Shown here: positions 18,500-44,540 of the stretch, in pieces | How the letters are laid out: each line of letters begins with the position of its first letter | How positions within the stretch are numbered: position 1 is the first letter of the stretch | Program-made: the position numbers and the translations under genes | Notes under the pieces: model-generated | Database searches by the model: none | Told to the model about the DNA's origin: nothing | Seen by the model: only the letters and a program-made list of their open reading frames with translations | IMG/VR virus record: IMGVR_UViG_3300036792_000363 | Location: 60,774 to 124,773 of that record | Reading direction: 5' to 3' (one strand) | DNA length: 64,000 nt | Origin: a virus

Positions 18500-18571
18500 A
18501 GCGGACGACGGGGCTCGAACCCGCGACCCCGTGCTTGGGAAGCACGTGCGCTACCACTGCGCCACATCCGC
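18500..18571 (-). tRNA. tRNA-Gly(CCC)
   Basis: Loop TTCCCAA on CGTGC/GCACG; reads GGG. Confidence 0.88.
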
Positions 18572-18574
18572 ACG

Positions 18575-18598
18575 CCGGGGCGGCGCTGGCCGCCCCGG
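18575..18598 (-). terminator. Strong hairpin after 66-aa gene
   Basis: Perfect 10-bp stem CCGGGGCGGC/GCCGCCCCGG with 4-nt loop, no U-run. It separates the protein-coding insert from the next tRNAs; could be a terminator or an RNase processing site. Confidence 0.5.
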
Positions 18599-18604
18599 GC
18601 ACTG

Positions 18605-18805
18605 CTAGAACCGCTCTCCCTCTTCGGACTGGGCGAACGGGTCGATCACCTCGATGCCGCCGTCATCGTGGAAGTCGATCGAGACCTCGCTGCCGAGGCA
18701 GGTGACCTTGCACCTGGCGCCCCAGCTCTCGACCTTCACCTTCAGCTCGGCCTGGACGTTGCCCAGGCCCACCGCGACGTCGCCGCGGGGCTTACTAGCG
18801 CTCAT
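18605..18805 (-). CDS. Small unrecognised protein, 66 aa
   Basis: 66 residues; ATG with GGGGAGG 7 nt upstream. Beta-rich (AELKVKVESWGARCKVTC), acidic C-terminus. It overlaps the end of the 35-aa beta-repeat ORF and lies with it and the Ig-like gene as a protein-coding island inside the tRNA array. Confidence 0.7.
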   Translation of the reverse strand: MSASKPRGDVAVGLGNVQAELKVKVESWGARCKVTCLGSEVSIDFHDDGGIEVIDPFAQSEEGERF

Positions 18806-18902
18806 CGCCGGCCTCCCCGTCTGCCACCGTGACCGTGACCGACTCGGTGACCGAGAGGCCCTGCGAGTCGGTCGCGGTGACGGTGATGGTGAGGTCAGCC
18901 AC
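18795..18902 (-). CDS. 35-aa beta-strand ORF, possible frameshift extension of Ig-like gene
   Basis: 35 residues from a GTG that overlaps the stop of the upstream Ig-like gene. Its sequence (ADLTITVTATDSQGLSVTE...) is the same Ser/Thr/Val beta pattern as the upstream protein and looks like its next domain strand in the +1 frame. It could be made by a +1 frameshift, by reinitiation, or the split could reflect a sequencing or assembly error. Confidence 0.45.
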   Translation of the reverse strand: MADLTITVTATDSQGLSVTESVTVTVADGEAGDER

Positions 18903-19230
18903 CGGCCGGCGGGGTGACGGTGGTCGTGAAGACCGCGGTCCCGGTCCCGTTGGCCAGGGTGTTGGACCCCGCGGCGTAGGTGTCGCCGAAGGTGTCCGTC
19001 GGGGTGACGTCCATCGACTCGCTGGCCTGCTCGACCACGGTGACGGTGGTGGATGCCGAGGCGGAGTTGCCCGCGGCGTCAGTCGCCGAGGCGGAGATGG
19101 TGAGGGTGACCGGGTTGGACTGGCTGTCGGCGTAGGTCGCCGTCAGCGTCAGCTGCTGGCCGGCGATGTAGCTGGCCGCGTCGGTCGCGAGGGAGAGGGT
19201 GGGGGTGCCAGGGGCTGGCGGAGTGGTCAT
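18895..19230 (-). CDS. Ig-like/cadherin-like repeat protein, 111 aa
   Basis: 111 residues; ATG with AAAGGAA 7 nt upstream and a CCGATCA element just before it. Bacterial Ig-like pattern: PTLSLATDAASYIAGQQL, then SQSNPVTLTISASATDAAG, Ser/Thr-rich strands to the end. Such domains decorate virions or bind carbohydrate weakly. The frame stops right where a second ORF of the same composition begins (18902). Virion decoration is plausible despite its location in the tRNA array. Confidence 0.65.
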   Translation of the reverse strand: MTTPPAPGTPTLSLATDAASYIAGQQLTLTATYADSQSNPVTLTISASATDAAGNSASASTTVTVVEQASESMDVTPTDTFGDTYAAGSNTLANGTGTAVFTTTVTPPAGG

Positions 19231-19277
19231 GGCGTTCCTTTGATCGGGAGGACGTTGCCTCCTGACCAATCGCCACC

Positions 19278-19354
19278 TGGAGCCCGGAACCGGGTTCGAA
19301 CCGGTGACCTCATCCGTACCGGGGATACGCTCTTCCACGCTGAGCTATCCGGGC
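19278..19354 (-). tRNA. tRNA-Thr(GGT)
   Basis: Loop CCGGTAC (C33) on TATCC/GGATG; TCCA encoded. Confidence 0.85.
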
Positions 19355-19496
19355 GAGTCTGATTCCATCTGCCGTCTACCTGCTGTTTTCCCGAAGGAAG
19401 GGGAGGTGTTCTTCGACAGTCAGAGTTCGCGGGCGTGTGAACTACCGGGGGCTCTGACCCCCCGGGCGGCCTGCCCAGAACCGCGTCTCCTCCCGG

Positions 19497-19581
19497 TGTC
19501 CGAGGCGGGACTTGAACCCGCACACCCCTTTCGGGGCACCAGCACCTCAAGCTGGGGCGTCTGCCGTTCCGCCACCCGGAC
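19497..19581 (-). tRNA. tRNA-Leu(GAG)
   Basis: Class II; loop TTGAGGT on CCAGC/GCTGG; reads CTC/CTT. Confidence 0.88.
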
Positions 19582-19723
19582 GCGGGGCCTCGCCAATCCT
19601 GACGGACCCGTCGTGGTCGCAGAGGGAGCCGTCCGCGTGCACGCGCCGCGGGTGCCCTGGCTGCGAGTAGTCGATGCTCACGACTACGAGATCCCCGGTG
19701 CAGTAGACCGCCTTCGCTGTCAT
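19547..19723 (-). CDS. Small protein overlapping tRNA-Leu, 58 aa
   Basis: 58 residues; ATG 7 nt after TATCCT, which fits a leaderless minus-10. N-terminal 45 residues look protein-like (VYCTGDLVVVSIDYSQPGH); the last dozen are encoded by the 5' half of tRNA-Leu. No family recognised. Either a real small gene ending inside a tRNA or a chance ORF. Confidence 0.4.
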   Translation of the reverse strand: MTAKAVYCTGDLVVVSIDYSQPGHPRRVHADGSLCDHDGSVRIGEAPRPGGGTADAPA

Positions 19724-19737
19724 ACCGCCGAGGATAG

Positions 19738-19811
19738 AGCCCCGAACCGGAGTCGAACCGATGGCCTGCTCATTACGAAAGAGCCGCTCTGGCCAGCTGA
19801 GCTACCGGGGC
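19738..19811 (-). tRNA. tRNA-Thr(CGT)
   Basis: Loop TTCGTAA on GCTCT/TGAGC; reads ACG. Confidence 0.85.
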
Positions 19812-19820
19812 GTGCCTGCG

Positions 19821-19893
19821 TTCCTCCTCATGGATTCGAACCACACACCTCTGACACCAGACGCCAGCGCTCTGCCAACTGAGCTAAGGAGGA
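19821..19893 (-). tRNA. tRNA-Gln(CTG)
   Basis: Loop GTCTGGT on CTGGC/GTCAG; unusual G32 and T38; reads CAG. Confidence 0.82.
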
Positions 19894-19990
19894 GCATTGC
19901 CGGGGGTCTTTTCTCCCCCCGGGGTAACGGCCTTGTCCCTCCCGCAGAGGAGGCCGGGCACGGATTCGCAGGACGGCCGTGCCAGCCGAG

Positions 19991-20066
19991 TGGGCGACGC
20001 GGGATTCGAACCCGCAGGTGACGCGGCTTTTGGGGCCGCCGCATATGCCGGTTCTGCTACTCGCCC
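19991..20066 (-). tRNA. tRNA with anticodon CAA, class I body
   Basis: Perfect stem GCGGC/GCCGC with 7-nt loop CCCAAAA gives anticodon CAA (Leu, TTG), with C33, but there is no long variable arm as bacterial tRNA-Leu needs. Identity uncertain; a separate normal tRNA-Trp exists at 21930. Confidence 0.65.
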
Positions 20067-20070
20067 GTTG

Positions 20071-20142
20071 TGCGCCGCCAGGGACTTGAACCCCGTTCCG
20101 TGGATTAAGAGTCCGCTGCATATCCCTACATGCTCGCGGCGC
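20071..20142 (-). tRNA. tRNA-Lys(CTT)
   Basis: Loop CTCTTAA; acceptor GCGCCGC; reads AAG. Confidence 0.85.
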
Positions 20143-20337
20143 ATTGTTTCCGGAAGTCAGTCCCGGGACCCCGCCGCGCGGAGCCTGGTGTCGCCCGCTT
20201 GCGGCGGGCTCACAGGGCGTCGGCGGGTGCCCCGGGGAGCATGAGACCCGGCCAGCCGGCTGGCCGGGCTTACGAGGCGTGTCGACTCGCGCCCGCCGGC
20301 CGGCCGTTTGATTACGGTCCTGACCGTCATACCCAAG

Positions 20338-20408
20338 AGCGGATGACCGGAATTGAACCGGCGTGGTCAGCTTGGAAGGCTGATGCTCGGCCACTGAGCC
20401 ACATCCGC
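20338..20408 (-). tRNA. tRNA-Gly(TCC)
   Basis: Loop CTTCCAA on TCAGC/GCTGA; reads GGA/GGG. Confidence 0.88.
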
Positions 20409-20419
20409 ATTGAACTACG

Positions 20420-20493
20420 TGGTCACAGAGGCGATCGAATCCTCGAACCTACCGCTTTTCAGGCGGTCGCTCTTCCGTCTGAGCTATGCGACC
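20420..20493 (-). tRNA. tRNA-Phe(GAA)
   Basis: Loop CTGAAAA on ACCGC/GCGGT; T-arm with one mismatch. Confidence 0.83.
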
Positions 20494-20531
20494 TCGTTGC
20501 TTGTCCCCGGATTTCCACTGTCGCAGGAATA

Positions 20532-20609
20532 CCGGGTAACCGCACCTCGGCACGCATGCACCAGGTGGCCACCCAGTGCTTCAGCCGGTCTCTGCCAGGC
20601 GCTACCCGG
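20532..20609 (-). ncRNA. Degenerate tRNA-like element
   Basis: 7-bp acceptor-like stem CCGGGTA/TACCCGG with a D-arm-like GCCTGGCAGAGAC, but no TTC T-loop and no clear anticodon stem. Confidence 0.35.
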
Positions 20610-20632
20610 GAACTGCAACTCGGGCCGCGGCC

Positions 20633-20702
20633 CGGCAGTCGGCAGGAGTCGAACCTGCCCGTGCGCATACCCCGCAGAGGGGCCAGGGCAGTCGCCGCTG
20701 CC
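20633..20702 (-). ncRNA. Degenerate tRNA-like element
   Basis: Good T-arm (GGCAGG-TTCGACT-CCTGCC) and GGCAG/CTGCC acceptor, but a shortened D region and a CCC-CTCTGCG-GGG arm. About 69 nt. Confidence 0.45.
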
Positions 20703-20707
20703 CGTGG

Positions 20708-20781
20708 TCGGGATGACGCGATTTGAACGCGCGGCCCCCTGGTCCCAAACCAGGTGCTCTACCAAGCTGAGCTACACCCCA
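20708..20781 (-). tRNA. tRNA-Pro(TGG)
   Basis: Loop TTTGGGA on CCTGG/CCAGG. Confidence 0.88.
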
Positions 20782-20850
20782 GTGCGCGTTGTTTAGGGTC
20801 CCGTAGGCAGAGCCGGATACGGGCCTTATGGCACAACGCGTAAAGCCTGG

Positions 20851-20924
20851 TCGGGGAGGCGGGATTCGAACCCACGACCTCTGCTTCCCGAAAGCAGCGC
20901 GCTACCAAGCTGCGCCACTCCCCG
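20851..20924 (-). tRNA. tRNA-Pro(CGG)
   Basis: Loop TTCGGGA on CTGCT/AGCAG; reads CCG. Confidence 0.88.
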
Positions 20925-21047
20925 ATGCTCCGGTCCTCAGAGCCCTGCTTCGCCTTGACGAGAGTCCCCGGCCGACGTCAGCCAGGTGCCTCAGCGGCCG
21001 CGTGGCGGCGGCCTCGGCCAGCAGGCCCGAGTGGGGGTGGAGCTGGC

Positions 21048-21118
21048 GGGGCAGACCGGCTAGTGCCTTGTTCCGCATTACCAGGACAGCTTCCCCGCGG
21101 CCAAGCGGCTACCTGCCC
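21048..21118 (-). ncRNA. Degenerate tRNA-like element (Thr-like loop)
   Basis: GGGCAG/CTGCCC ends, internal CTGGTAA loop that would read GGT, but no T-loop consensus (GGC-ACTA-GCC instead). Confidence 0.35.
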
Positions 21119-21123
21119 GAGCG

Positions 21124-21196
21124 TGGAGACGACGCGATTCGAACGCGCAACCGCTTCAGTGCGAGTGAAGTGCTCTACCAGCTGAGCTACATCCCC
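21124..21196 (-). tRNA. tRNA-Ala(CGC)
   Basis: Loop CTCGCAC on CTTCA/TGAAG. Its first base is the last base of the stop codon of the HNH gene upstream. Confidence 0.88.
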
Positions 21197-21618
21197 TAGA
21201 TATGCTGCCAAATCTTGCGCTGCCTGATCTGCCAGATCAGGGTGTAATCCACCCCGAGCTGATCCGCTACCGCCCGAAGGGAGAGCGGCGAGGATCTCGC
21301 CATCAGGACGTCTGCTTCAGTCAGCTTGGCCGCGGCGTTGTCTTCTCCGCACAGCGCCTCGGCTGCCGACTTCTTCCTGTAGCACGGGCTGCACCGAACC
21401 ACGCATTTGGCCAGTTCGGCTTCCCGCCGGGCCTTAGCCCAAGACCAGACCCTGTGCGTGATCTTGGTAGACGGATCCACATGATCAACTTCAGGGCTGT
21501 CCCAGGAACCGCAGTCGACGCACGGCCCATTTTCTGCAATCCACGCAGCACGACGAGCAGCCATCCACATGCGCATGTACTCTCGCTGCTGAACTGGATC
21601 TTTATACGGCACGCTCAC
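21196..21618 (-). CDS. HNH homing endonuclease in the tRNA array
   Basis: 140 residues. HNH/zinc core: CVDCGSWDSPEVDHVDP (33-49) and CSPCYRKKSA (76-85); the C-terminal part GEDNAAAKLTEADVL...LSLRAVADQLGVDYTLIWQIRQRK is a helix-turn-helix DNA-reading module. Codons are visibly less GC-rich than those of neighbouring genes, a sign of recent acquisition. The stop codon shares its last base with tRNA-Ala(CGC), so insertion was precise next to a tRNA. Confidence 0.85.
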   Translation of the reverse strand: MSVPYKDPVQQREYMRMWMAARRAAWIAENGPCVDCGSWDSPEVDHVDPSTKITHRVWSWAKARREAELAKCVVRCSPCYRKKSAAEALCGEDNAAAKLTEADVLMARSSPLSLRAVADQLGVDYTLIWQIRQRKIWQHI

Positions 21619-21636
21619 TATTACGTGAAGCGCCCG

Positions 21637-21709
21637 TGGAGCCTACGCGATTCGAACGCGTGACCTTTTGCATGCCATGCAAACGCGCTACCAGCTGCGC
21701 CAAGGCCCC
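21637..21709 (-). tRNA. tRNA-Ala(GGC)
   Basis: Loop ATGGCAT on TTTGC/GCAAA; reads GCC. Confidence 0.88.
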
Positions 21710-21714
21710 AGATA

Positions 21715-21759
21715 GGCGCTCGGCCAGGACGCGATGCGAACACGCCCCGGCCGAGCGCC
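21715..21759 (-). ncRNA. Hairpin with T-arm-like core
   Basis: 11-bp stem GGCGCTCGGCC/GGCCGAGCGCC enclosing GCGTG-TTCGCAT-CGCGT, a T-arm-like hairpin. Looks like the acceptor/T half of a tRNA without the rest. Confidence 0.4.
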
Positions 21760-21768
21760 GGTCAAACT

Positions 21769-21827
21769 GGCGCGACGCCCGGTACAGAGTGATCCCCGGG
21801 AGTAGCTGCTCTATCTTCCGTCGCGCC
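21769..21827 (-). ncRNA. tRNA-like hairpin without T-arm
   Basis: 9-bp stem GGCGCGACG/CGTCGCGCC with internal short stems. Complementary in make-up to the previous element: D/anticodon-like side without a T-loop. Confidence 0.35.
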
Positions 21828-21929
21828 CAAATACACGGCGGCGAGATGGCGCTCGCCGCCTGATGCTCACCGCTATGGTCTTGTCATGTAGCGAGCACGT
21901 CCCCCGGGCCGAGGCCCGGATGGTGCCAG

Positions 21930-22003
21930 CAGGGGCGGCAGGATTTGAACCCGCGACGCGCAGTTTTGGAGGCTGCCGTTCTGCCTGGCTGAACTACGCC
22001 CCT
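21930..22003 (-). tRNA. tRNA-Trp(CCA)
   Basis: Loop CTCCAAA; T-arm GCGGG-TTCAAAT. First tRNA after the promoter at 22279-22308. Confidence 0.88.
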
Positions 22004-33246: not shown

Positions 33247-36093
33247 TACGCCCGCGGCGGGAAGGGCGGCGATGACCCGCCCCGCGGCCTCGTCGGCGCA
33301 GCGCGGGCACAGGCCCTCCGGCCAGGGCGCCCCCAGCAGGCTGACCGGCACCGGCGCGCCGCACCCGGCGCAGGCGCCGGCGCCGCCGGAGAAGAACTCC
33401 ACCCGGCGGGCGGTGTAGCGGGCCGCCTCGATCCAGCTGGGCCGCCCCATCAGCGCGGCGTAGGCCTGGTACGGCCCGATCCTGCCGTTCAGCACCATCC
33501 GCAGCACGATCCTGCGCCCGTCGCGGGCGACCCAGAAATCAGCGACGTGCTCCCTGGCGTCCCCGTGCTGCGCGGTGGCCCCCACGTAGAAGCTGTCGGC
33601 CCGCACCAGGACCGGCACCTCCTGCGCCTCCGCCCACCAGCGCAGCCGCGCCGCCACCTCGGCGGCGGGGTCGGCCACCTCCAGTTCCCACAGGCTGGCG
33701 GGGCGGGGCGGCAGCCGCGCGCCGGGCGGCAGCTCCCCGAACTCCCCGCGCCATTCCAGGTGCGGGGCAAGCTCGTCGCCGAACGCGGCCAGGAACCACG
33801 GCAGCCCGGCGTCGTCGCGGCGGGTGACGCCGAACTCGGCGTAGTCGGCGCCGGTGGACCGGTCCCGGTAGGCGGTGGAGCCCGACACCAGCCGGACGGT
33901 GGCGGGCGCGATGGGCGGGAACCCGGTCCGCTCGCACGCCCGGTAGGCGGCGCGGCGGATGATGAACGCCAGCGAGGAGTTGGAGACGAACCGGAACGCC
34001 TCCGGCCGCTCCACCCGCAGCCGCAGCTTCAGCGCCACGGTGGAGTGGTCGAGCGGGGTCACCGGGTCGGCCGCCAGGTCGCGGTCGGCGGCGGTCACGC
34101 GGTCCCGGCGGATCTCCAGGTCGCGGCGGTCGCACGCCCCGCACGCGTTCCCCTGGCAGCGCTGGTCGCAGCGGTCGACCCACTCGTTGCCGTGGTAGCC
34201 CTCGTCGCACAGGTCGTCGTAGGTGCCCGCGCTGGTGCCGGTGAGCAGGTCCACCATGTCGCGGTAAACCCGCCACATGAGGGACTTCTCCACGCCGGTG
34301 TCGATGTGCTCCCAGCCGAGCAGGTCGTGCTCGAACCGCTCGCCGAAGATGTCGGCCAGCCCGTTGCGGAACCCGCGGCCGATGAGGGCGGCGTCCAGCC
34401 GCTCGGGCGTGTCCTTGGGGAACCCGCCCCAGCTGGCGACGCCCAGGCCCTCGATCACGTCGACGATCGCCTCGCCCGCGTCCCGGCTGGCGCGCTGGCA
34501 CGCCTGGAAGAACGCCAGCTTGGCCGGGTTGGCCTTGCTGCCGATCTTCACCCAGATCCGGTGCTCGCGCAGCGCGTCGAACGCGGGCTGCAGCGAGTAG
34601 TCGGGCGGGGTCACCTCGAACCACTGCATCGGGGTCTGCGCCTCGATGAGCAGCGGCGTCCAGCTCATGATGATCTGCACGCCGGCCGCGTCGGGCCCGA
34701 AGCCGTCGCGGACGTCGGCCAGCCGCTTCCCCAGGTCCACGATCCGCATGACGTCGCGCTCGGTCTCGCCCGGCCAGTTGGTGATCATGTAGAGCTTCAC
34801 CTTGCGGATGCCGGCGCCGATGGCCTGGGCGACGGCGCGCACCACGTCCTCGTCGGAGGTGCCCTTCCCGGCCAGGTCCCGCATCAGCTGGCTGTTGCCC
34901 TCCAGCCCGAACGTGATGGCCTCGGTGCCGCCGATCTGCATCACCATCGACAGCTGGGGGTCGGCGGTGTAGTCGTCGATCCGCATGCTGGACGCGTTCA
35001 CCCGCCCGGTGACGTTCTCCAGCAGCCCCGCAATCAGTGCCTTTTTCAGCGTGTGCGCGGGCGGGTCGGGGGCCACCAGGGAGATCTCGGTCGAGCCCAT
35101 GTTCCGCCGCCACTTCCCGGCGCGGGCGATCGTCCGTTCCGGGTCCTCCTGCCGCTGCGGCTTGGTGACCCACCCGAGCTTGCAGAACACGCACCAGTTG
35201 TCGCAGCCGCGGGCCATCTCCACGTCGCCGGAGCCCATGCTCGGGTCGGAGAACAGCACCGGCGCCGACGTCATCAGGTCGGCGGCGTTGAGGTCGTGCA
35301 CCCGGCGGGCGCGGAACCGCGGCCCGACCCCGGGCACCAGCGGGTAGGAGCGCGAGACCATCTTCGTCGGCTCGGGCAGCCCGCGGTCCTCGTACCGGTA
35401 GGAGAACGCGGTGAAGCGCGGGAAGTACAGGAAGTTGAACTCGCGGGCGAGGGCCAGGTAGCAGCCCTCGCGGTCAGCCTGCCACGACCCGGCGCTCTTG
35501 AACTGCGCGATGCGCTCGCACACCGCGCCGATGCCGGGGTTGCCGGGCTCGTCCTCGGCCTCCCCCAGCCACACGCAGTCGACCACCGGGGCCATGAACT
35601 CGGGCGCGCAGTAGGCCAGCCCGCCGACCATGACCATGGGGTAGTCCTCGGCCCTGGCCTGGCGGTCCGCCCAGCGCAGGGGGACGCCGCTCATCGACAG
35701 GTACTTGCAGAAGTTGACCAGCAGCACCGTGTAGCTGATGGACGTGCCCACCACGTCGAAGTCGCGCAGCTGGCGCCTGCTCTCGATGCCGAACGCCGGG
35801 ACCTGGCCCTTCTCCAGCAGGTCCATGTCGCGCTGGGTGGCGGGCAGGTACCAGCGGTCGGCCAGGTTCCGCGGCCCCGCCTTGTGCACCGCGTCGTAGA
35901 TCACCGGCATGGCCATGTTGCCGGCCGCCTGGCTGTAGTCCCAGGACGCGGCCAGCAGGCAGCGCACGTCGGTGTGCTCCCACGACCGCCGCTCGGCGTT
36001 CGGCTCGGTGCCCAAAAATTGTCCGGGCCCATCAAATCTATATAGATTTGCGTCCAACCATCGAGCGATTGAATCTGGCGAGCGGCCTGCCAC
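33247..36093 (-). CDS. B12-binding-type radical SAM protein (YgiQ/TIGR03960-like)
   Basis: About 950 residues; 3' limit approximate. Residues 26-120 match the N-terminal B12-binding-like domain of this class (FLGTEPNAERRSWEH, then VGTSISYTVLLVN); the radical SAM cluster CDNWCVFC is near 297-304; later there is a CDQRCQGNACGACDRRD cysteine motif and a C-terminal Cys2-Cys2 pair. Substrate unknown; such enzymes methylate or modify RNA or peptides. Two oddities: the 5' end is fused to a homing-endonuclease insertion, and the frame has no stop before dnaX; a +1 shift at CGTATTAA would give one. Confidence 0.75.
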
Positions 36094-36550
36094 AAAGAGT
36101 CACCTCCTCCCCCTCGAAGTACGCCACCTTGGCGCATGCCACAGCCAATTGCGTCAGCCGCCGGTCCGACAACAAAGGACCGACCAACACCAGAAACTCC
36201 CAGGCCCGCTTGCCGTTTAGATACAGATAGCTAATGCCGTCCACTCCAGGATTGCCCATACTGCCCCCGAAGTACCGACGAAGGAACACCAATGGCTGCA
36301 CGTCCTTCTGGGGCAGGGTCACACGCAACGACCCGCCATGGCAGTCCGCACTTCCCTCGCCCTCGTAAAACCCAGCAGCGTACCCAATCTCTAGAGGACC
36401 GGGAATTAGCTCGGGGGCGGTTCTCTCAGGCGGGTTGTTCCATCGGAACCGGTCTGCGCACCTCCGGCAGCGTGCCGCGTAGTGATATTTGGCGTTACCG
36501 CACTCACAAAATGGACCACAACGCGGGTCCGACGCAGGGATGCTCGGCAT
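36038..36550 (-). CDS. LAGLIDADG-type homing endonuclease
   Basis: 170 residues; ATG with GGGGAG 8 nt upstream. An N-terminal Cys-rich finger (CECGNAKYHYAARCRRC, 15-31) precedes IGYAAGFYEGEGSAD, the LAGLIDADG helix, and YFGGSMGN...KRAWEFLVLVG typical of the fold; only one LAGLIDADG motif is seen, so it would act as a dimer. Codon use is much less GC-rich than in neighbours, indicating recent arrival. It is inserted exactly between the Rad50 C-half and the radical SAM gene and disturbs the ends of both. Confidence 0.85.
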   Translation of the reverse strand: MPSIPASDPRCGPFCECGNAKYHYAARCRRCADRFRWNNPPERTAPELIPGPLEIGYAAGFYEGEGSADCHGGSLRVTLPQKDVQPLVFLRRYFGGSMGNPGVDGISYLYLNGKRAWEFLVLVGPLLSDRRLTQLAVACAKVAYFEGEEVTLCGRPLARFNRSMVGRKSI

Positions 36551-37206
36551 AACTCACTCTCCCCTTCGAAAACCCGCGTCAGCCCGTCCGGCCCGAGCGT
36601 CAGGCGGATGAGCTGGTCGGCGTACTGCGCGTAGGTCACGCTGTGGGCGGACAGGACGATCTGCACCCCCGCCTGGTAGGCCGCCTCGCGCAGGAACGCG
36701 GCCACCCGGTCGGCGTAGCTCTCGCTCACGTGCGCGAAGCTCTCGTCCAGGAACAGGACCTGCCGCGCGCCCGGCGTGAACAGCAGCATGACCAGCCGCA
36801 TCATGAACCCGGCGACCGCCGCCATCCCGCCACCGCGGGCGTCGAGCACGGAAGTCTCCGTTATCGTACCGCCGTAGTCGGAGCGGATGACGGGCTCCAG
36901 CGTGGGCTGCCCGCCGGTCTCCCCCGGCACCAGGCCGAACGACAGCTCCGGCCCGAAGATGATCTGCAGCGCCCGGGTGACCGCGCCCTCGAACCGGGCC
37001 CGGTCGTCCTCCTGCTTGCGCTCGCTGATGGTGGTGAGCAGCAGCGCCACCTTGGCGTGCAGCTCCGCCGCGGCCTCCAGCCGGGCGATCTCCGCGTTCA
37101 CCGCGGCGGCGTCGGCCCGCACCTGCTGCGCCCGGCCGGTCTCCCGGTCGACCTGCTGGCGGGCCAGCCGGACGCGCTCGGCGAGCGCGGCGGCGTCAGC
37201 GGTCAC
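36406..37206 (-). CDS. Rad50/SbcC-like C-terminal half (Walker B, signature)
   Basis: 266 residues as read, from a GTG overlapping the upstream stop. An N-terminal coiled coil (1-75) leads to the lobe-II ATPase: ARGGGMAAVAGFMMRLVML takes the place of the signature motif, QVLFLDESFAHVSE is Walker B/D-loop (about 150) and IVLSAHS the H-loop. No Walker A. It pairs with the gene at 41856, which has Walker A and ends at the zinc hook. The last 45 residues derive from the inserted endonuclease DNA; the native end was probably near 36,560 (VFEGE). Confidence 0.8.
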   Translation of the reverse strand: MTADAAALAERVRLARQQVDRETGRAQQVRADAAAVNAEIARLEAAAELHAKVALLLTTISERKQEDDRARFEGAVTRALQIIFGPELSFGLVPGETGGQPTLEPVIRSDYGGTITETSVLDARGGGMAAVAGFMMRLVMLLFTPGARQVLFLDESFAHVSESYADRVAAFLREAAYQAGVQIVLSAHSVTYAQYADQLIRLTLGPDGLTRVFEGESELCRASLRRTRVVVHFVSAVTPNITTRHAAGGAQTGSDGTTRLREPPPS

Positions 37207-37376
37207 TGGGGCTCCTGCAGCGTCCAGTGCCACAGGTGGATGTTCTCGGCGACCTCGGGATGCGCCGACAGGTAGTCCACCATCTCCGCCGGGCTGTCGA
37301 ACTTCACCTGCGCGTGCGCGTCGGTGATGGACACCGACTGGGGCGGCGGCCGGAAGCGGCCGAGCAGCCACGACAT
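37203..37376 (-). CDS. Small unrecognised protein, 57 aa
   Basis: 57 residues; ATG shares a base with the upstream stop (TGATG). Ends with ENIHLWHWTLQEPQ. No domain recognised. Part of the tightly overlapped clamp/Rad50 operon. Confidence 0.65.
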   Translation of the reverse strand: MSWLLGRFRPPPQSVSITDAHAQVKFDSPAEMVDYLSAHPEVAENIHLWHWTLQEPQ

Positions 37377-37594
37377 CAGGGGTTCACCGCCGAGATGGCC
37401 GCGGTGACGGCCCGCATGTGCCGCGGGGTCCCCGCGCCGCGCCCGCGGTCGTAGGCCGCGTAGACCTCCCGCTGCAGCGGCCCGGGCACCTGCCCCCAGT
37501 GCCCTCCGCACATCAGCTTGTTCCTCGGCACCTGCGCCTTGCACAAGTGCCCGGGGCACTTGTGCGTGTTCTGCACTGCCTGCGCCATCGTCAT
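37376..37594 (-). CDS. Small Cys/His protein of a common actinophage family
   Basis: 72 residues; AAGGAG precedes two ATG codons, the second (37588) at better spacing. CPGHLC and LMCGGHWGQVPGPLQREVYAAYDRG give a probable zinc site; the second segment is typical of a widespread actinophage hypothetical protein. Function unknown. Confidence 0.7.
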   Translation of the reverse strand: MTMAQAVQNTHKCPGHLCKAQVPRNKLMCGGHWGQVPGPLQREVYAAYDRGRGAGTPRHMRAVTAAISAVNP

Positions 37595-37600
37595 TCTCCT

Positions 37601-38800
37601 TCAGTAGCCGAGCCGGCCGGGGACCTGCTGGGGGCAGGTCCCCATCACGCCGGCCTCGATGTCCTCCAGCAGCAGCGGGAACCGCCGCTGCCCGCTGTCG
37701 GGTGCCAGCCGGAAGTCGCAGACGGGCGACGGGTGCGCCGCCAGCATCGCCTCCAGGAACCCGGCGTTGACCACCGCCTGCTGCTCGTCGGCGCCGGGCT
37801 GCCAGTCGTCGCCGACCTTGGCGGACCAGTCGGCGGCCGGGATGACCTCCTCGGAGCTGTTGCCGTCGGGGTCGCGGGCGGTGACGGCCAGGGTGGCCCG
37901 GCCGTCCGCCACGGCGGCGCGCAGCGCCACGGCCGACGACCGCGGGTTGGCGTTGATCCGGGCCCGGCGCAGCGCGCCCGCCAGGTCGGCCTTGTCCACC
38001 GTCAGCCGGCGGCTGTGCCCGGCGACCGGCTGCAGGAACTGGCTGTCGACGTCGGGGAACTCGCGGGTCGACCTGGCGGCGGCCAGCGTCACCCGCCCGA
38101 TGCGGAACACCACGCACGCCTCGGTCTCCCCTGCCTCCACCGTCTCGCCCTCGGGGCTCTTGGCCAGGATCTTCAGCAGGTCGTCCAGCGCGGTCAGCGG
38201 CACCGACACCGGGAACGGGAAACCGGGGACGGCCGCGCGGGCGAACTGCCCGCTGTCGGACGCCATCGCGCACATGACCCCGCCCGACATGCCGATCCGC
38301 ACCTGGGTGAACTCGGGCCGGCCCAGGTCCCGGCCGACCGCGTGCTTCACCGTCTGCAGCGCCGACAGCAGCCCCTTGCGGTCGACCGCGGCGAACTCGG
38401 CCCCTGACAGGTCCGGCAGCCCGATGTAGGACTTGGCGGGCCACAGCCGCAGCGACCACGACGCGGACCCGGCGGTCACCTTCGCGGCCGCGCCCTTCAC
38501 CGCCACGGTGACGTCCCCCTCGGGGGCGGCCGCCAGCATCTCGCGCAGCTTGCGGGCCGGGATGAGGGCCTCGCCGCCGGTCTTGGACTCCACCGTCGGC
38601 GTGGAGGCGATCACCGTCAGCTGCTGGTCGGTCCCGGCCAGCGTCAGCAGCTCGGGGGTGACGGTGACCTTGAAGCACCCGTTGACCGGCAGCGTCGGCG
38701 AGCCCGGCACCGCCTGCACCGCCCACTCCGCCAGCTGCGCCAGCCACCCCCGCCGGGTGGTGAACGCCCAGTTCCCGTAGTCCGCCCCGCCGTCGCTCAT
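37601..38800 (-). CDS. dnaN: DNA polymerase III beta-like sliding clamp
   Basis: 399 residues; ATG overlaps the upstream stop (ATGA). Three repeated alpha/beta domains: residues to about 120 with ALIPARKLREMLAAAPEG, then SGAEFAAVDRKGLLSALQTVKHAVG (beta domain 2 start) and SRRLTVDKADLAGALRRARI (domain 3). The C-terminus lacks the usual MPMR and ends in PGRLGY. It probably tethers the PolA-type polymerase encoded downstream; DnaX-, HolA- and HolB-like loaders are also present. Confidence 0.85.
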   Translation of the reverse strand: MSDGGADYGNWAFTTRRGWLAQLAEWAVQAVPGSPTLPVNGCFKVTVTPELLTLAGTDQQLTVIASTPTVESKTGGEALIPARKLREMLAAAPEGDVTVAVKGAAAKVTAGSASWSLRLWPAKSYIGLPDLSGAEFAAVDRKGLLSALQTVKHAVGRDLGRPEFTQVRIGMSGGVMCAMASDSGQFARAAVPGFPFPVSVPLTALDDLLKILAKSPEGETVEAGETEACVVFRIGRVTLAAARSTREFPDVDSQFLQPVAGHSRRLTVDKADLAGALRRARINANPRSSAVALRAAVADGRATLAVTARDPDGNSSEEVIPAADWSAKVGDDWQPGADEQQAVVNAGFLEAMLAAHPSPVCDFRLAPDSGQRRFPLLLEDIEAGVMGTCPQQVPGRLGY

Positions 38801-39045
38801 GCCGCGCTCCCTGTCAGCTGCTCTTCCACGTTGGCGGCCTCCGCCGCCACCTGCTGGCGCAGCAGCGCCAGCAGCCGCTCCGCGTCCTCCAGGCCGTCGG
38901 CCTGGAACTCAGCGCGCAGCTCCTCGGCCGCCAGCCGCTCCCTGGTCTCCGCCTCGGCCACCCCGGCGGCCGCGGCGGCGTGCCGCCGGCCTGCCTCCTC
39001 CGCCTCGCGGCGGAGCCTCGCCACCTGCTGCGCGATGTCTTCCAT
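38797..39045 (-). CDS. Coiled-coil protein, 82 aa
   Basis: 82 residues, almost entirely heptad-like helix (EDIAQQVARLRREAEEAG). ATG preceded at 14 nt by CGGTAGTAGCTGAC, which also encodes the last residues of the nuclease upstream. Role unknown; might bridge repair proteins. Confidence 0.65.
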   Translation of the reverse strand: MEDIAQQVARLRREAEEAGRRHAAAAAGVAEAETRERLAAEELRAEFQADGLEDAERLLALLRQQVAAEAANVEEQLTGSAA

Positions 39046-39059
39046 GTCAGCTACTACCG
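39046..39059 (-). promoter_or_regulatory. GTAGTA element inside coding sequence
   Basis: CGGTAGTAGCTGAC abuts the ATG at 39045 and nearly matches the element before 47527 (CTGTAGTAGGTGAC). Confidence 0.4.
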
Positions 39060-39892
39060 GCGGTGAGGGCGGCGCGCCCGGTGCGGCCGATGGGCGGCGC
39101 GAACTTGGGGCAGACGCGCTGCACGTCGCACCAGTCGCAGCCCTCGTCATCCGCTTTTGGGTGCACCCGGCCTGCCCAGATGTCGTGGGCGGTCCGCTCG
39201 ATCCGCCACGACATCTCCCGCACGGCCGTCATGCCGACGTCGAACGGCAGCACCTGCTCCGAGCACATGGGCTGGATGATGCCGGTCTTCACCGGCAGCC
39301 GTCCCCGCATCGCGGCCACCGCGATGGCGTAGAACGCCAGCTGCCCCAGCACCTTCTTGTAGTACTGGTCGTTCTGGGTCGCCTTCAGGTCCCAGACGAC
39401 GATGCGCCCCTGGCTGTCCTCCACCAGCAGGTCCATCTCGCCGATGAGGATGATCCCCCGCGGCTCGCCGTCCAGGCCGGTGATGGTGACCGGCACCTCG
39501 AACCGCCTCGCCGGGGTCCAGGTGAACGGCAGCGCGTACCGGTTGAGGATCTTCTCCAGCCGTTTGACCAGCTCGCGGCAGAACGCCAGCAGCTGCGCCC
39601 GGTCGTCGGCGTGCTTCCACTTGACGATCCCCTCTTTCGAGGGCTTGCTGCACTCGTCGAGCAGCTCCTCGATGTGCGCCAGCATCCACCCCGGGGGCGG
39701 CTCCTCGAACTCCAGCCAGCGCCGCATCGCCAGGTCGGTCGCGTTGCCGTGCACGAAGTTGCGGTTGTCGAACAGCGGGGACCGGTTCCCCCTGCGCAGG
39801 TCGTACTTGGCCGGGCACTCGTCATGGGTTCGCAGCCGGCTCCAGGACAGCCGCAGCGGCTTCGGCGCTTCCAGGACCGCCAGGTCGCTCAA
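39047..39892 (-). CDS. RecB/Cas4-like PD-(D/E)XK nuclease
   Basis: 281 residues from a TTG overlapping the upstream stop (TTGA). SWSRLRTHDECPAKYDLRRG is the N-terminal Cas4/RecB helix; GEMDLLVE and VVWDLKAT supply the D-(x)n-(E/D)xK active site (about 168-190); CDWCDVQRVCPKF near the end completes an iron-sulphur cluster with the N-terminal cysteine. A 5'-3' or end-processing exonuclease that fits the adjacent Mre11/Rad50 system. Confidence 0.85.
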   Translation of the reverse strand: MSDLAVLEAPKPLRLSWSRLRTHDECPAKYDLRRGNRSPLFDNRNFVHGNATDLAMRRWLEFEEPPPGWMLAHIEELLDECSKPSKEGIVKWKHADDRAQLLAFCRELVKRLEKILNRYALPFTWTPARRFEVPVTITGLDGEPRGIILIGEMDLLVEDSQGRIVVWDLKATQNDQYYKKVLGQLAFYAIAVAAMRGRLPVKTGIIQPMCSEQVLPFDVGMTAVREMSWRIERTAHDIWAGRVHPKADDEGCDWCDVQRVCPKFAPPIGRTGRAALTAGSS

Positions 39893-40872
39893 CGCCCGCC
39901 CCCGTAGGCCGCTTCCGCCAGCAGCTCCGACGCCAGGTCGACCTGCGCCGGGTCGAGCCCCAGCGACTTGATGTGAGCGATGACGCCCTCGATGCTCAGC
40001 ACGTCCATCTGCGCGGTGCCCACCTGCTCCAGGAACCCGGACAGCAGCGCGCGGGAGGTGACCACCCGCTCGTGCTCGCGCAGCCGGAACACCTCCTCCG
40101 GCGGCCGGGCCCGCAGCGGGGCGAAGGTGAACTGCCCGGTCACGGTGTCCCACAGCGTGCACCCGACCTGCCGGCCCGGGTCCAGGTTGTAGTCGTCCAG
40201 GCTGCCCCGGGAGATGGCCCCGTTGTTGCAGAACGTCAGCCCGCCGTGCTCCCACACGCCGTGCGGCTCGTGGATGTGCCCGTAGAACAGCCCGTGGCCC
40301 ATGTCCCCGTCCTCGGCGGCCGTCGACCACCAGCCGGCCGGGGTGCACTCGGCCCCCTCGTAGCGCGGCACCTTGTCCGGCGGGTAGATGGGCGCGTGGG
40401 AGACGATCAAGGTCCGGCTGAAAACGCTCTCGCGGAAGTCCCCCAGCGCGGCGGCGACCCGAGCCTCCGACCAGTCCTGCTGCCAGGGCACGCCGTACAC
40501 CGGCAGGCTGCCCTCGGCCCAGCCCTCCAGCCGCTGCGCCCCGGCCTCGTACAGCACCCCGAGCGGCTGGGTCGCCTCGATCGAGTCGAGCCGGTCGTTC
40601 TGCAGGTCGTGGTTGCCCGGGGTGATGAGCACCGGGCACGGGTACGCCTTAATCACTCTTATCAGGTCGAGGATCACGCCGTACGTGGTCCGCCCGGGGG
40701 CCTTGTGGTGCAGCACGTCGCCCGCCCAGGCCACCGCCAGCACCTCGTGCTCGCGCGCCAGCGCCACGCTCTGCCACAGCAGGTCGAGCAGGTCGGGCCA
40801 GTACGCGTCGGTGCACGACGACGGCGGCCGGTAGGTGGCGTGGATGTCGGACAGGCACAGGATCTCACCCAT
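39889..40872 (-). CDS. Mre11/SbcD-like metallophosphoesterase
   Basis: 327 residues. Calcineurin-type phosphodiesterase motifs in order: CLSDIHATY (6-14), WAGDVLHHK (about 49-57), TPGNHDLQ (about 83-90), VSHAPIY (about 156) and YGHIHEPHG (about 196-204). It should cut DNA ends with manganese as the partner of the split Rad50. Start set by CCGTAGTAAGAGGC 14 nt before the ATG. Confidence 0.88.
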   Translation of the reverse strand: MGEILCLSDIHATYRPPSSCTDAYWPDLLDLLWQSVALAREHEVLAVAWAGDVLHHKAPGRTTYGVILDLIRVIKAYPCPVLITPGNHDLQNDRLDSIEATQPLGVLYEAGAQRLEGWAEGSLPVYGVPWQQDWSEARVAAALGDFRESVFSRTLIVSHAPIYPPDKVPRYEGAECTPAGWWSTAAEDGDMGHGLFYGHIHEPHGVWEHGGLTFCNNGAISRGSLDDYNLDPGRQVGCTLWDTVTGQFTFAPLRARPPEEVFRLREHERVVTSRALLSGFLEQVGTAQMDVLSIEGVIAHIKSLGLDPAQVDLASELLAEAAYGGGR

Positions 40873-40886
40873 GCCTCTTACTACGG
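40873..40886 (-). promoter_or_regulatory. GTAGTA element before mre11-like gene
   Basis: CCGTAGTAAGAGGC abuts the ATG at 40872; no Shine-Dalgarno. Confidence 0.45.
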
Positions 40887-40887
40887 A

Positions 40888-41808
40888 CTAGCCGTAGAGG
40901 GCCTCCCAGGTGTCCCGGCCGATGCGGCCGTCCTCCGTCAGCTTGTAGTGCCGCTGCACCGCCACCACCGCGGCCTTCATCTTGGCGCCGAACACGCCGT
41001 CGTCGGCGATGGCGGTCACCGCCCCCAGCCCGTTCCAGCGCCCGACGGCCGCGACCATCACCTGGGCCCGGTGCACGTAGAACGTCGACCCGGCCTTGTC
41101 GTCCGAGCCCTCCTCCAGCGTCGGCAGGTTCGCCATCATCTCATCCGTCCAGTTGAACTCGGCCCGCCAGGCGGCAAGCTCGTTGAGGTCGCCGTTGAAG
41201 TAGTCGAGGTCCCCGCCGCCGGGGCCGCCGCCCTGCTCCTTCTGCCAGAACACCCACATCGGCCAGGGGTGCACGTTCTCCGGCGGGGCCGGTTCGTACC
41301 AGGCGGCGAACAGCGGGTAGCGCGCGCAGGACGTCAGGTAGTTCTGCGCCATCCACATGTCGGTGTAGAGCATCACCGGGCACGTCGGCCCGACCAGCTC
41401 CTCCACCTTCTCCAGGAACGCCAGCGCGGCCGCGCCCACCGCGGTGCCCGCCGGCCCCCGCAGCAGCGGCAGGCTCATCCGGCGCGCGGGCGCGGCCCCG
41501 TACCGCTCCACCCCGTCCCCGCCGGAGAGGATCTCCACGTCGGCCAGGAACACGTCGCCGTCGCTGATCCCGTGCGCCCGCACGGTCGAGACGAAGAACT
41601 CGGCCTGGGTGACCGGGTTCTCGGCCGGGTGGAAGAAGTGGTAGGCCCCGCGGACGATGCCGGCGTGGCCCAGGTTCCCCCAGTTGGCCGCGAACGTCGG
41701 GTCGTCCCAGGTGGTGCCCTCGGTGGCCTTGGCGAACCCGAAGGAGTTCCCGCCCCACCCGGTGACGGGCTGGTAGGTGCTCCGGTCTTCGCCGGGCGCG
41801 TACGACAT
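40888..41808 (-). CDS. GH25 lysozyme endolysin with C-terminal peptidoglycan-binding domain
   Basis: 306 residues; ATG with GGCGGGAG upstream. GH25 fold: D8 near the N-terminus (GEDRSTYQP), FGFAKATEGTTW, VRGAYHFFHP and the catalytic pair in FLADVEI (about 98-104). The last 60 residues (GVFGAKMKAAVVAVQRHYKL...GRIGRDTWEAL) are a PG_binding_1 repeat. It degrades the host cell wall at lysis. It stands alone among recombination genes but carries a late-type CCGATT element 43 nt upstream. Confidence 0.9.
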   Translation of the reverse strand: MSYAPGEDRSTYQPVTGWGGNSFGFAKATEGTTWDDPTFAANWGNLGHAGIVRGAYHFFHPAENPVTQAEFFVSTVRAHGISDGDVFLADVEILSGGDGVERYGAAPARRMSLPLLRGPAGTAVGAAALAFLEKVEELVGPTCPVMLYTDMWMAQNYLTSCARYPLFAAWYEPAPPENVHPWPMWVFWQKEQGGGPGGGDLDYFNGDLNELAAWRAEFNWTDEMMANLPTLEEGSDDKAGSTFYVHRAQVMVAAVGRWNGLGAVTAIADDGVFGAKMKAAVVAVQRHYKLTEDGRIGRDTWEALYG

Positions 41809-41837
41809 CCGGACTCCCGCCTGCGAGGCAACACGAC

Positions 41838-41851
41838 GCAGGGGGAATCGG
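41838..41851 (-). promoter_or_regulatory. GCCGATTC promoter of endolysin
   Basis: CCGATTCCCCCTGC (preceded by G) 43 nt before the endolysin ATG; leader of about 29 nt. Nearly identical to the element before 6281. Confidence 0.55.
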
Positions 41852-41855
41852 CCGG

Positions 41856-42794
41856 TTAGGTGACGGCCTGCCCGCAGGTCGGGCACAGGCCGGCCCGGGC
41901 CAGCGCGTCGTGCGCCGTCTGCCGCGCCCGGTCCGCCCGGTCCGACGCGTCCGACGCGACCTGCCGCAGCCGGGCGGCGTCCTCCCGGCCCTGCCGCAGC
42001 CGGGCGATGACGCCCGCCAGCCGGGCCTCGCGGGCCGCCAGCCCCTCCAGCCGGGCCAGGGACGGCGGCTCCCGGCGCGAGGCCTCGGCGCGGGCTCCCG
42101 CGGCCGCCGCCCGGGCGGCCCGCAGCCGGGCCGTGAGGGCCTCCAGCCGACGCAGCGACGCGGACGCCGCCTGCAGCCGCGCCAGCGCCTCCTCGGCGGC
42201 CTGGACGGCCTTCCTGCGCTCGCCCAGCCCGATGAAGGACTGCGCCTGCGCCAGCAGCGCCTCGCGGCGCTCGCGGGCCGCCTCCAGGTCCCGCTCGATC
42301 CGCTTGCGGCGGCGGCTGGCGCCCGCGGCGGCGGCCAGCACCCAGGACACGTTAGTCAGCTCGCCCAGCGTGCCGGCCAGCTTGGTGCCGGTCACGTCCA
42401 GCAGGTAGGGCATGTCGAACTGCCCGGCGAAGTTAAGCTCGGTCAGCCGCAGCGCGTCCGCCGCCTCCTGCGGCACCGCGCCGGCCAGCTTGGTGTGCTT
42501 GGTCCGCGTCCACGCCGCGCCGTCCCACGCGGCCACGTGGTAGGCGTCCAGCCTGCGCGAGCGGGAGCGGGTGATCCGGACCACGCCGGCGCCGTCCCCC
42601 ACCGCCACCGAGCACGAGGCGCGGCCGTTGGTGATGTAGCCGGTGCCGCGGGCGTTGAAGGCCAGCAGCCGCACGGCGCGGAAGACGGCGCTCTTGCCGG
42701 AGCTGGACGGGCCGGTGATGACGGTGAACATGCGCAGCGGGATGTCCACGGCGTCCAGGCTCTGGTACCCGCGGACCTCGATGCGCTCAAGCAC
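41856..42794 (-). CDS. Rad50/SbcC-like N-terminal half ending at zinc hook
   Basis: 312 residues from a GTG overlapping the upstream stop. Walker A GPSSSGKS at 28-35, N-lobe to about 150, then a coiled coil with heptads (ERDLEAARERREALL...RLRRLEAL type) to about 300, and CPTCGQAV at 304-311: the protein stops five residues after the zinc-hook CxxC. Walker B and signature are absent and are found in the gene at 36406. The two would form one ATPase by joining across the hook or through the head domains. Confidence 0.85.
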   Translation of the reverse strand: MLERIEVRGYQSLDAVDIPLRMFTVITGPSSSGKSAVFRAVRLLAFNARGTGYITNGRASCSVAVGDGAGVVRITRSRSRRLDAYHVAAWDGAAWTRTKHTKLAGAVPQEAADALRLTELNFAGQFDMPYLLDVTGTKLAGTLGELTNVSWVLAAAAGASRRRKRIERDLEAARERREALLAQAQSFIGLGERRKAVQAAEEALARLQAASASLRRLEALTARLRAARAAAAGARAEASRREPPSLARLEGLAAREARLAGVIARLRQGREDAARLRQVASDASDRADRARQTAHDALARAGLCPTCGQAVT

Positions 42795-42948
42795 GCGGGC
42801 CCCGCTCGATCCGGAACGGCAGCATCGGGATGATGACGATGTAGTCGGAGTCCTCGCCGTGGAACCACCCGATCCACAGGTCGCGCGGCTCGAACCACTG
42901 CGACCAGCGCCCAAGCTCCCACAGCCGGGTCTTCAGCTCCCAGAACAT
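42787..42948 (-). CDS. Small Trp-rich protein, 53 aa
   Basis: 53 residues; ATG shares a base with the upstream stop (TGATG). Six or more tryptophans (LWELGRWSQWFEPRDLWIGW). No family recognised. Confidence 0.65.
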   Translation of the reverse strand: MFWELKTRLWELGRWSQWFEPRDLWIGWFHGEDSDYIVIIPMLPFRIERGPRA

Positions 42949-43166
42949 CAGCCCGCCTCCGTCCGGTAGGAGTAGCCCGGGTACTCGGCTTCCCACGTCT
43001 CCGCGCACTCGCCGCAGGTCTGCAGGGCGGGCTCCACGTCGTCGTCGGAGTCCTCCGGCTCAAGCCAGACGCCCTCCATCTCGACGCGGCACTTCGGGCA
43101 GCAGATGACCATGACCAGCGGCTGCCGGTCCGACTCGGGAAGACTGGCGTCAGGCAGGCCTGGCAT
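42948..43166 (-). CDS. Zinc-ribbon protein, 72 aa
   Basis: 72 residues. CCPKC and CGECAETW give a Cys2-Cys2 ribbon separated by an acidic stretch (EPEDSDDDVE). Overlaps the upstream gene by 17 nt. Unknown function, probably DNA or protein binding. Confidence 0.7.
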   Translation of the reverse strand: MPGLPDASLPESDRQPLVMVICCPKCRVEMEGVWLEPEDSDDDVEPALQTCGECAETWEAEYPGYSYRTEAG

Positions 43167-43365
43167 GGCCCCATCCGTTTCTCAGTGCGCTGCGGACCCG
43201 CGGCTGCAGGTCGCTCTTTAGTACCGGCACGCAGATCACGGGGTTCTGCGCCAGCGAGAACAGGTAGTGCCGGTCCGACCCGGTGGTGAAGACGCGCCAG
43301 CGCGTTCCGAACGCGCCGTTCACCTCGGCCACGAACTTCATTACCTGCAGCTCGGGGACCATCAT
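43150..43365 (-). CDS. Small unrecognised protein, 71 aa
   Basis: 71 residues; tandem ATG two bases after the upstream stop. Alpha/beta (VMKFVAEVNGAFGTRWRVF) with a basic C-terminus. No domain recognised. Confidence 0.65.
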   Translation of the reverse strand: MMVPELQVMKFVAEVNGAFGTRWRVFTTGSDRHYLFSLAQNPVICVPVLKSDLQPRVRSALRNGWGHARPA

Positions 43366-43367
43366 CG

Positions 43368-44540
43368 CTACTCGGCCTCGTCCCGGGACCAGTCCTCCGG
43401 GACGGGCCGGCGGCAGCCGTGCTTGAGGCTGCCGTCGCACATGCCGCCGCCGCGGTGCACGATGTCCCCGCCGAACATCATCAGCGTCTGCGCGGTCCGC
43501 CAGCCCACCTCGTCGGTCAGGTTGGCGGCCTCGATGCCGGCGTTCATGATGGCGTACATGGTCAGGTCGCCGGGCAGGTCCTCGATCGCGACCGCGATCC
43601 GCAGCTGCTCGTCCCGCGGCACCTTGTTGTCCTTGAACAGCTCCCGCAGCAGGCGCCCGTAGTCGCCGTCCACCTGGCGCTTGACCAGCGCCTGCAGCCC
43701 GCTGAACGCGGACTCGACCCCGCCGAAGATGTCGCGGCAAGCCTCGGCGCACCAGGCGTACGCGCCCTCGGGGGTGGAGCCCCGGCGCTTGAACCCGCCG
43801 GAGGTGTGCTCGACGTCCAGGCACACCGCGGTGGTGGACAGGCGCATCATGCACCCGCTGACGATGGTCTGCTTGAGCGCGGTCAGGGAGTTGTGCACCT
43901 CGATGCCGTAGCACCAGGCGTCCTCGTCCTCGTCGGACCCGAGGATGATGCTCTGCACGGCCGGGAACAGCACCCGGAAGCTGGTGTGCTCCAGGTCCGT
44001 CCACAGCTTATAGTCCACGCAGGCGGTGTCGGCGGCCTCGTCGCCGAACCGGGCCCGCGCGCAGCGCAGCACCGTGTCCAGCAGCGTCACGTCGCTGAAC
44101 GGGACGATGGTGTCGCGGCACTGGGCCACCGCCAGCGGCACCCGCTCCCCGTTCTGGTCGGCGCCCGAGCCGGACAGCAGCAGCTTCAGCGGCCGCTCGC
44201 CCAGCCCGTCGCGCAGCGCGAAGTTGGCCGCCTGGGACAGCAGCGGCGCGGGCAGGAACTCCTGCAGCTTCTTCGGCACCCGCGCGGTCGAGCCGACCTG
44301 CTTGGCGGCCATGTGGGTCAGCTGGAACCAGCCGCCCGACGGGACGTACAGCCACGCCGGGGCCGGCTCCAGGTCCGGCACGGTGAACCAGTCCGCGCCG
44401 TGGACGACGGCCAGCCCGTCCTCGCCGCACTCGAAGGTGAAGCTGCCCAGCTGGTCGCCCAGGGCCAGCCGGGCGCGCGCGTCGTCCACCGGGATCATCC
44501 CGGCGTCGTCCGCGTCGAAGGGAACGCTGGTCCAGGTCAT
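43368..44540 (-). CDS. DUF932-like protein (putative), 390 aa
   Basis: 390 residues; ATG with GGAG 10 nt upstream. The middle (AWCYGIEVHNSLTALKQ, then SGCMMRLSTTAVCL) resembles phage/plasmid DUF932 proteins whose function is unclear; the C-terminal region is helical and ends with a Cys/His cluster (GGGMCDGSLKHGCRR). Located between RuvC-like resolvase and small zinc proteins, so a recombination role is possible. Confidence 0.65.
   Translation of the reverse strand: MTWTSVPFDADDAGMIPVDDARARLALGDQLGSFTFECGEDGLAVVHGADWFTVPDLEPAPAWLYVPSGGWFQLTHMAAKQVGSTARVPKKLQEFLPAPLLSQAANFALRDGLGERPLKLLLSGSGADQNGERVPLAVAQCRDTIVPFSDVTLLDTVLRCARARFGDEAADTACVDYKLWTDLEHTSFRVLFPAVQSIILGSDEDEDAWCYGIEVHNSLTALKQTIVSGCMMRLSTTAVCLDVEHTSGGFKRRGSTPEGAYAWCAEACRDIFGGVESAFSGLQALVKRQVDGDYGRLLRELFKDNKVPRDEQLRIAVAIEDLPGDLTMYAIMNAGIEAANLTDEVGWRTAQTLMMFGGDIVHRGGGMCDGSLKHGCRRPVPEDWSRDEAE

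Follow-up and report, generated by a model that had tools for sequence, protein, structure and literature searches.

A Rad50 encoded as separate N and C subunits, cut just after the zinc hook and accompanied by a coiled-coil gene, in phages and Bacillota

The window analysed here is a 64,000-nucleotide stretch of viral DNA (bases 60774-124773 of the 124,773-base IMG/VR virus record IMGVR_UViG_3300036792_000363) with a GC fraction of about 0.71. Its region of interest is a minus-strand replication and repair block, in which two genes encode one Rad50, cut just after the zinc-hook motif into an N subunit and a C subunit. A small coiled-coil gene (CC) and the gene of an Mre11-like nuclease lie between them:

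42794-41856, minus strand: Rad50 N subunit, with lobe I (Walker A, Q-loop), a helical arm and a C-terminal zinc-hook motif; phrog_16465, 2.5e-22
41885-41874, minus strand: codons of the CPTC hook motif, five residues before the N stop codon
40872-39889, minus strand: Mre11/SbcD-like nuclease, the presumed head-binding partner; Metallophos, 1.6e-11
39045-38797, minus strand: coiled-coil subunit CC, 82 amino acids, whose stop codon overlaps the start of the next gene, DnaN (ATGA)
37206-36406, minus strand: Rad50 C subunit, with one long helix and lobe II (signature, Walker B, H-loop); phrog_15167, 1.3e-25

The N gene runs from a GTG start at 42794 to a stop at 41856 and encodes a product of 312 amino acids with the Walker A motif GPSSSGKSA and the Q-loop NFAGQF. 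Its C-terminus reads AGLCPTCGQAVT and is followed by the stop codon (LCPTCGQAVT, stop), so that reading of the motifs bears out a first-pass annotation of this DNA, which had given the N gene the Walker A lobe and one coiled-coil arm and had it end five residues after CPTC. The same annotation had described the C gene as starting with a coiled coil and containing the signature, Walker B and H-loop, and this also holds, with a GTG start placed at 37206; the start of the raw open reading frame (ORF) at 37371 was dismissed as an over-extension. The C half carries a signature-like segment, VLDARGGGMAAV (ARGGG), the Walker B motif QVLFLDES and the H-loop LSAHS, and has no CxxC. That the second half lacks a CxxC of its own had been taken as a sign of altered tethering; the absence is real and is no anomaly, since canonical Rad50 has one CxxC per protomer and its zinc site is made by two protomers (PMC5093744). 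The motif sets of the two halves are complementary, and neither half is complete on its own: N has the features that define lobe I of Rad50/SbcC (Walker A and Q-loop), and C those of lobe II, with the signature in the variant form xRGGG.

Profile and fold comparisons assign both halves to Rad50. Against solved structures in the PDB, Rad50 is among the best matches of the N profile, and Rad50 C chains are the first matches of the C profile. The AlphaFold model of N (pLDDT 88.9, pTM 0.46) matches the fold of the Rad50 N chains 9a9j_A and 1f2u_A, and that of C (pLDDT 95.3, pTM 0.78) the C chains 1ii8_B, 1f2t_B and 9a9j_B. The matched Pyrococcus furiosus entries have the N and C segments as two chains, and covalent linkage is therefore unnecessary for building the head. 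In PHROGs, the two halves fall in two separate families, phrog_16465 ('exonuclease') for N and phrog_15167 ('ATPase') for C.

The split is conserved well beyond this phage. Searches of phage sequences found it in Microbacterium phage Magritte, Bacillus phage vB_BboS-125 and an uncultured 485-kb phage, with the halves separate in each, and it occurs in close relatives of the window's phage. A nucleotide search returned almost nothing. Scanning viral contigs with single sequences found two matches for N and no relatives for C; alignment-based scans of the contigs yielded 65 C loci and 43 N loci. A genome scan with a Bacilli-type alignment added 24 Bacillota loci, in the order Mre11, N, CC, C or N, CC, C, Mre11. 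In total, 125 loci have both halves, 68 of them viral (the 485-kb phage included) and 57 in bacterial genomes, where recA and rny often flank the unit. All 125 show the same split with CC on the same strand between the halves, 123 have Mre11, and at none does one polypeptide carry both lobes and both arms joined through the hook. The survey for the same split that had been suggested for actinophages thus extends to jumbo phages, Bacillus phages and Bacillota chromosomes. The split is not a product of chance, because the halves match Rad50 N and C chains by sequence and fold and the arrangement is kept in 125 loci.

Two gene orders predominate in phages. The relatives of the window's phage and the jumbo phages have N, Mre11, PD-(D/E)XK, CC, DnaN, C, and Bacillus phages have N, CC, C, Mre11. 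In Magritte the genes are scattered, with N tens of kilobases from the rest, and the phage keeps CC, the PD-(D/E)XK gene, Mre11, DnaN and C as well as N. Magritte gp247 (L163 28006-29244), annotated as an 'ASCE ATPase', matches a DnaN-type sliding clamp profile. Several relatives carry inserts in these genes: in L070 (2470-4497) N is interrupted at Walker A by an intein with Hint and LAGLIDADG matches, in L104 (8948-11152) N has a similar insert with no Pfam match, and inserts that match LAGLIDADG weakly interrupt the Mre11 genes of L004 (4275-6359) and L066 (5151-7214).

The Natroniella locus reads cinA, metallophosphoesterase, RNA ligase, recA, recX, Mre11, N, CC, C, rny, the gene names having been assigned by reading the sequences. 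This neighbourhood identifies a chromosomal gene set rather than a prophage. The unit adjoins recA in 29 and rny in 28 of the 64 bacterial sequence stretches examined; L126 (3494-10370) and 28 further bacterial loci have it beside recA, and usually rny, a housekeeping-locus setting. The split is neither phage-specific nor recent and is also a chromosomal form in Bacillota, and since the same cut recurs in many unrelated phages and many Bacillota chromosomes, it represents an old form of Rad50 and not a broken gene.

Co-occurrence of the parts was counted in 250 genomes spread evenly over the phylum of Natroniella, with matches to the C profile in 42 and to the N profile in 44. With the genome of a fused form (see below) and two long single-chain N matches left out of the pair count, 41 genomes have separate N and C genes and none has only one of them (Fisher 5e-48). 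With E below 1e-9 as the limit, CC was detected in 40 of the 41 split genomes and nowhere else among the 250; in the last split genome (G168) another profile found it. A SbcC model matched 99 genomes, one of the 41 split genomes versus 98 of the other 209 (Fisher 4e-9), an approximate figure, since no more than the top three candidates of each genome were scored. As phrog_77 is too general for counting SbcC in bacterial genomes, TIGR00618, the model of canonical SbcC, was used in its place; above its curated cut-off it matched none of 13 split-unit genomes and only one of 14 controls.

Among 123 distinct N proteins, 118 have the CxxC, nearly always as CPxC, 3-29 residues from the C-terminus. 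The exceptions are some proteins cut by contig ends, Magritte and L184, and L018, whose candidacy as a hookless N was dismissed because its contig contains a frameshift. The arms preceding the CxxC range from about 145 to about 365 residues and resemble themselves when shifted by 47 residues (Z about 44 versus heptad-preserving shuffles, a value that sums over related sequences and is not a probability), with the next peak at 94. Conserved hydrophobic and helix-breaking positions are likewise spaced at 47, and hook positions tend toward steps of about 47 residues (near 303, 345, 392, 414, 460 and 511). The N arms can thus be described as 47-residue helical repeats whose length tends to change by whole repeats. 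In the AlphaFold model, the C half shows one helix of about 80 residues, part of it inside the lobe. With N arms of up to about 365 residues, such a helix is too short to extend to the hook in the long forms. The ATPase head, rather than the hook as had been proposed, is therefore the most likely place where the two polypeptides meet.

The first-pass annotation had placed the division at the hook and counted two genes; the position of the cut stands, and the count does not, since CC is present at every locus. CC has about 80 residues in two helical stretches flanking a G-x-x-P or similar turn, and was traced by profile and gene position, with loci first missed by the profile recovered by position. 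A tblastn search for CC in phages found nothing, and comparison with Pfam and NCBIfam returned generic coiled coils only. No convincing CC-C fusion was seen, the long C ORFs having the appearance of over-extended starts. Because CC always accompanies N and C (125 of 125 loci; 41 of 41 genomes), the protein is read here as tripartite, with CC as a putative arm subunit.

One natural fusion bears on the relation between the parts. In genome G056, one ORF of 700 residues (L143; 4152-6254, minus strand) comprises Mre11, lobe I and lobe II, with neither arm nor CxxC, and a profile search of this genome did not find CC; this single case suggests that CC belongs with the arm. A tree built on the two lobes separates every split form from five single-chain proteins with support 0.999, the single-chain set being small and distant, which is consistent with one origin of the split forms. 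L143 lies within the split clade and is therefore a later fusion.

The remaining genes of the repair block in the window are:

50103-47539, minus strand: polymerase
45132-44554, minus strand: RuvC-like gene, between the polymerase and the N gene in reading order
41808-40888, minus strand: GH25 endolysin with peptidoglycan-binding domain, directly after the N gene
39892-39047, minus strand: PD-(D/E)XK (RecB/Cas4-like) nuclease; PDDEXK_1, 3.7e-21
38800-37601, minus strand: DnaN-like sliding clamp, between CC and C; DNA_pol3_beta, 6.9e-14
36550-36038, minus strand: homing-endonuclease-like gene with the motif GYAAGFYEGEGS; phrog_5046, 4e-5
about 33000-31669, minus strand: clamp loader, downstream of the C gene in reading order

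Mre11-like and RecB/Cas4-like genes do lie between the two halves, as had been noted, but so do the GH25 endolysin, CC and DnaN, which had gone unlisted. By synteny, the form of the module found in actinophages and jumbo phages keeps the PD-(D/E)XK gene as a neighbour, and the DnaN-like clamp is a conserved neighbour between CC and C; two small genes separate the clamp from the C half. The endolysin gene sits within the repair module, and L004 has a similar gene in the same place. At the 3′ end of the C gene homology ends at about 36550, and the ORF continues to 36406 in a frame differing from that of the homing-endonuclease-like gene; this overlap appears to add an unconserved 48-residue tail to the C protein. 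A Rfam scan of 35500-43500 for an intron or other RNA element gave no match. Elsewhere in the window, 33 of its 34 predicted tRNA genes are bunched at 15916-22003.

These observations very probably describe a tripartite Rad50, with a head formed from N and C on Mre11, a hook at the C-terminus of N, and CC as a subunit of the arm. N would supply lobe I, the arm and the zinc hook, and C lobe II, and on the Mre11 nuclease the two would build a whole ABC ATPase head without a covalent bond between them. As in Mre11-Rad50, a pair of these heads would then close around ATP and DNA ends, with the corresponding ATPase and nuclease activities, and two N subunits would bind zinc and link at their arm ends through Zn(CxxC)2, a joining that has been studied with short hook peptides (PMC5093744). 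CC would be a piece of the descending arm made as its own chain, probably packed beside the N arm or the helix of the C half. In the phage, the position near the polymerase, clamp, clamp loader and RuvC points to a role in replication and recombination, and in many Bacillota the unit next to recA appears to replace SbcCD. Several observations weigh against parts of this proposal. The exclusion of SbcC rests on the scoring of the top three candidates per genome, and 4 of 13 split-unit genomes (two Paenibacillus, Brevibacillus and Pelotomaculum) also have a SbcC-like match. The Magritte clade lacks the CxxC, the site reading MREHGQTVD in Magritte gp155 (L007 5001-6053) and MHEHGKSVD in L184; as both are hookless, the loss is common to this phage clade. 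In the long forms the N arm is unequal in length to CC plus the C coil, so C and CC alone cannot pair with it. CC matches just generic coiled coils, which leaves its descent from a Rad50 arm conjectural. A variant that we regard as possible but distinctly less likely has an open modular arm, in which the N arm, built of 47-residue units, folds on itself or pairs with the N arm of the partner protomer, CC is a movable piece, and the whole serves as the housekeeping Mre11-Rad50 in part of the Bacillota. Under this variant, units are gained or lost whole, and the N arm would have no descending partner of equal length within its own protomer. Passage of DNA in and out would need no closed ring to open, and arm length would be free to evolve.

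The tripartite assembly must also be weighed against explanations that differ on the nature of its parts. The enzyme might consist of N, C and Mre11 only, with CC a separate regulator or loader, for example one linking it to the clamp or to other repair proteins. No specific similarity between CC and Rad50 arms was detected, and CC translationally adjoins DnaN in the actinophage and jumbo-phage module, but it accompanies N and C at every locus, even those without DnaN nearby, and was not found in the single armless-fusion genome (n = 1); we consider this bipartite enzyme a doubtful alternative. It is highly improbable that N and C are leftovers or that each works in a complex of its own with some other full-length Rad50/SbcC or SMC partner, as would suit genes separated by kilobases in the window and located in distant regions of the Magritte genome. 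No full-length Rad50/SbcC was found in the window's own genome, N and C co-occur perfectly and nearly exclude full-length SbcC, the motifs are conserved in about 120 sequences, and a natural N-C fusion exists. Pairing of each half with a different full-length partner, named beforehand as the result that would overturn the split, is thereby contradicted.

Phage genes fractured at split inteins occur, and inteins are present in these genes in some relatives, so a full protein might in principle be restored by trans-splicing or by programmed frameshifting. N ends 3-29 residues past the CxxC and C starts in its own helix, which leaves no room for intein halves; none lie at the junction ends, and the candidate was rejected. 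Several genes intervene between N and C, which rules out frameshifting, and the probability of either route is negligible. Equally far-fetched is the view that mobile genes, for instance the endonuclease at 36038-36550, recently broke up a single-chain Rad50 in this phage, an idea prompted by the overlap of that gene with the 3′ end of the C gene. The same split in close relatives, and the separation of the split forms from the five single-chain proteins in the tree, refute it.

Rad50 is understood as a continuous rod that runs from head to hook and back. P. furiosus Rad50, Escherichia coli SbcC and T4 gp46 have in common with the split form both lobe motif sets, the CxxC hook and an Mre11/SbcD partner, as well as the folds represented by 9a9j, 1f2t/1f2u and 1ii8. 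Those proteins are single chains with an antiparallel coil through the hook, whereas here the chain is cut after the hook, the arms are unequal, CC is a separate gene and the signature is xRGGG instead of the SGG type. PHROG 16465 and 15167 hold the halves as separate phage proteins, but without recognition that they are halves of one enzyme and with no link to the hook or the CC gene. Fusion proteins of Mre11 and Rad50 (SbcDC) are known (Yoshida et al., 2011; PMC3175470) and have the same order as L143, Mre11 then Rad50; L143 differs in lying inside the split clade and in lacking arm and hook. A term search of the paper did not find a split Rad50. In the sections of Iyer et al. (2021; PMC7824862) drawn on here, SbcC is a practically universal jumbo-phage ABC ATPase with no mention of a split, and jumbo phages have split DNA polymerase III and split RNA polymerase subunits, replication and transcription enzymes that large phages likewise make as separate polypeptides. 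The genome paper of vB_BboS-125 does not discuss the split. Full-text literature searches found no split Rad50/SbcC; they lay outside subscription journals and preprints, where an earlier description is possible. Within the literature searched, the tripartite split Rad50 is thus a previously undescribed form.

A rod that is cut after its hook, keeps the hook cysteines and has gained a coiled-coil subunit tests how far head assembly, arm pairing and hook tethering need a covalent chain. Two natural experiments are at hand: the armless fusion of Mre11 with the two lobes for the arm, and the hookless Magritte clade for the hook. The finding gives an identity to phage genes named just 'exonuclease', 'ATPase' or hypothetical, and it suggests how Bacillota lineages without a detected SbcC may process DNA ends.
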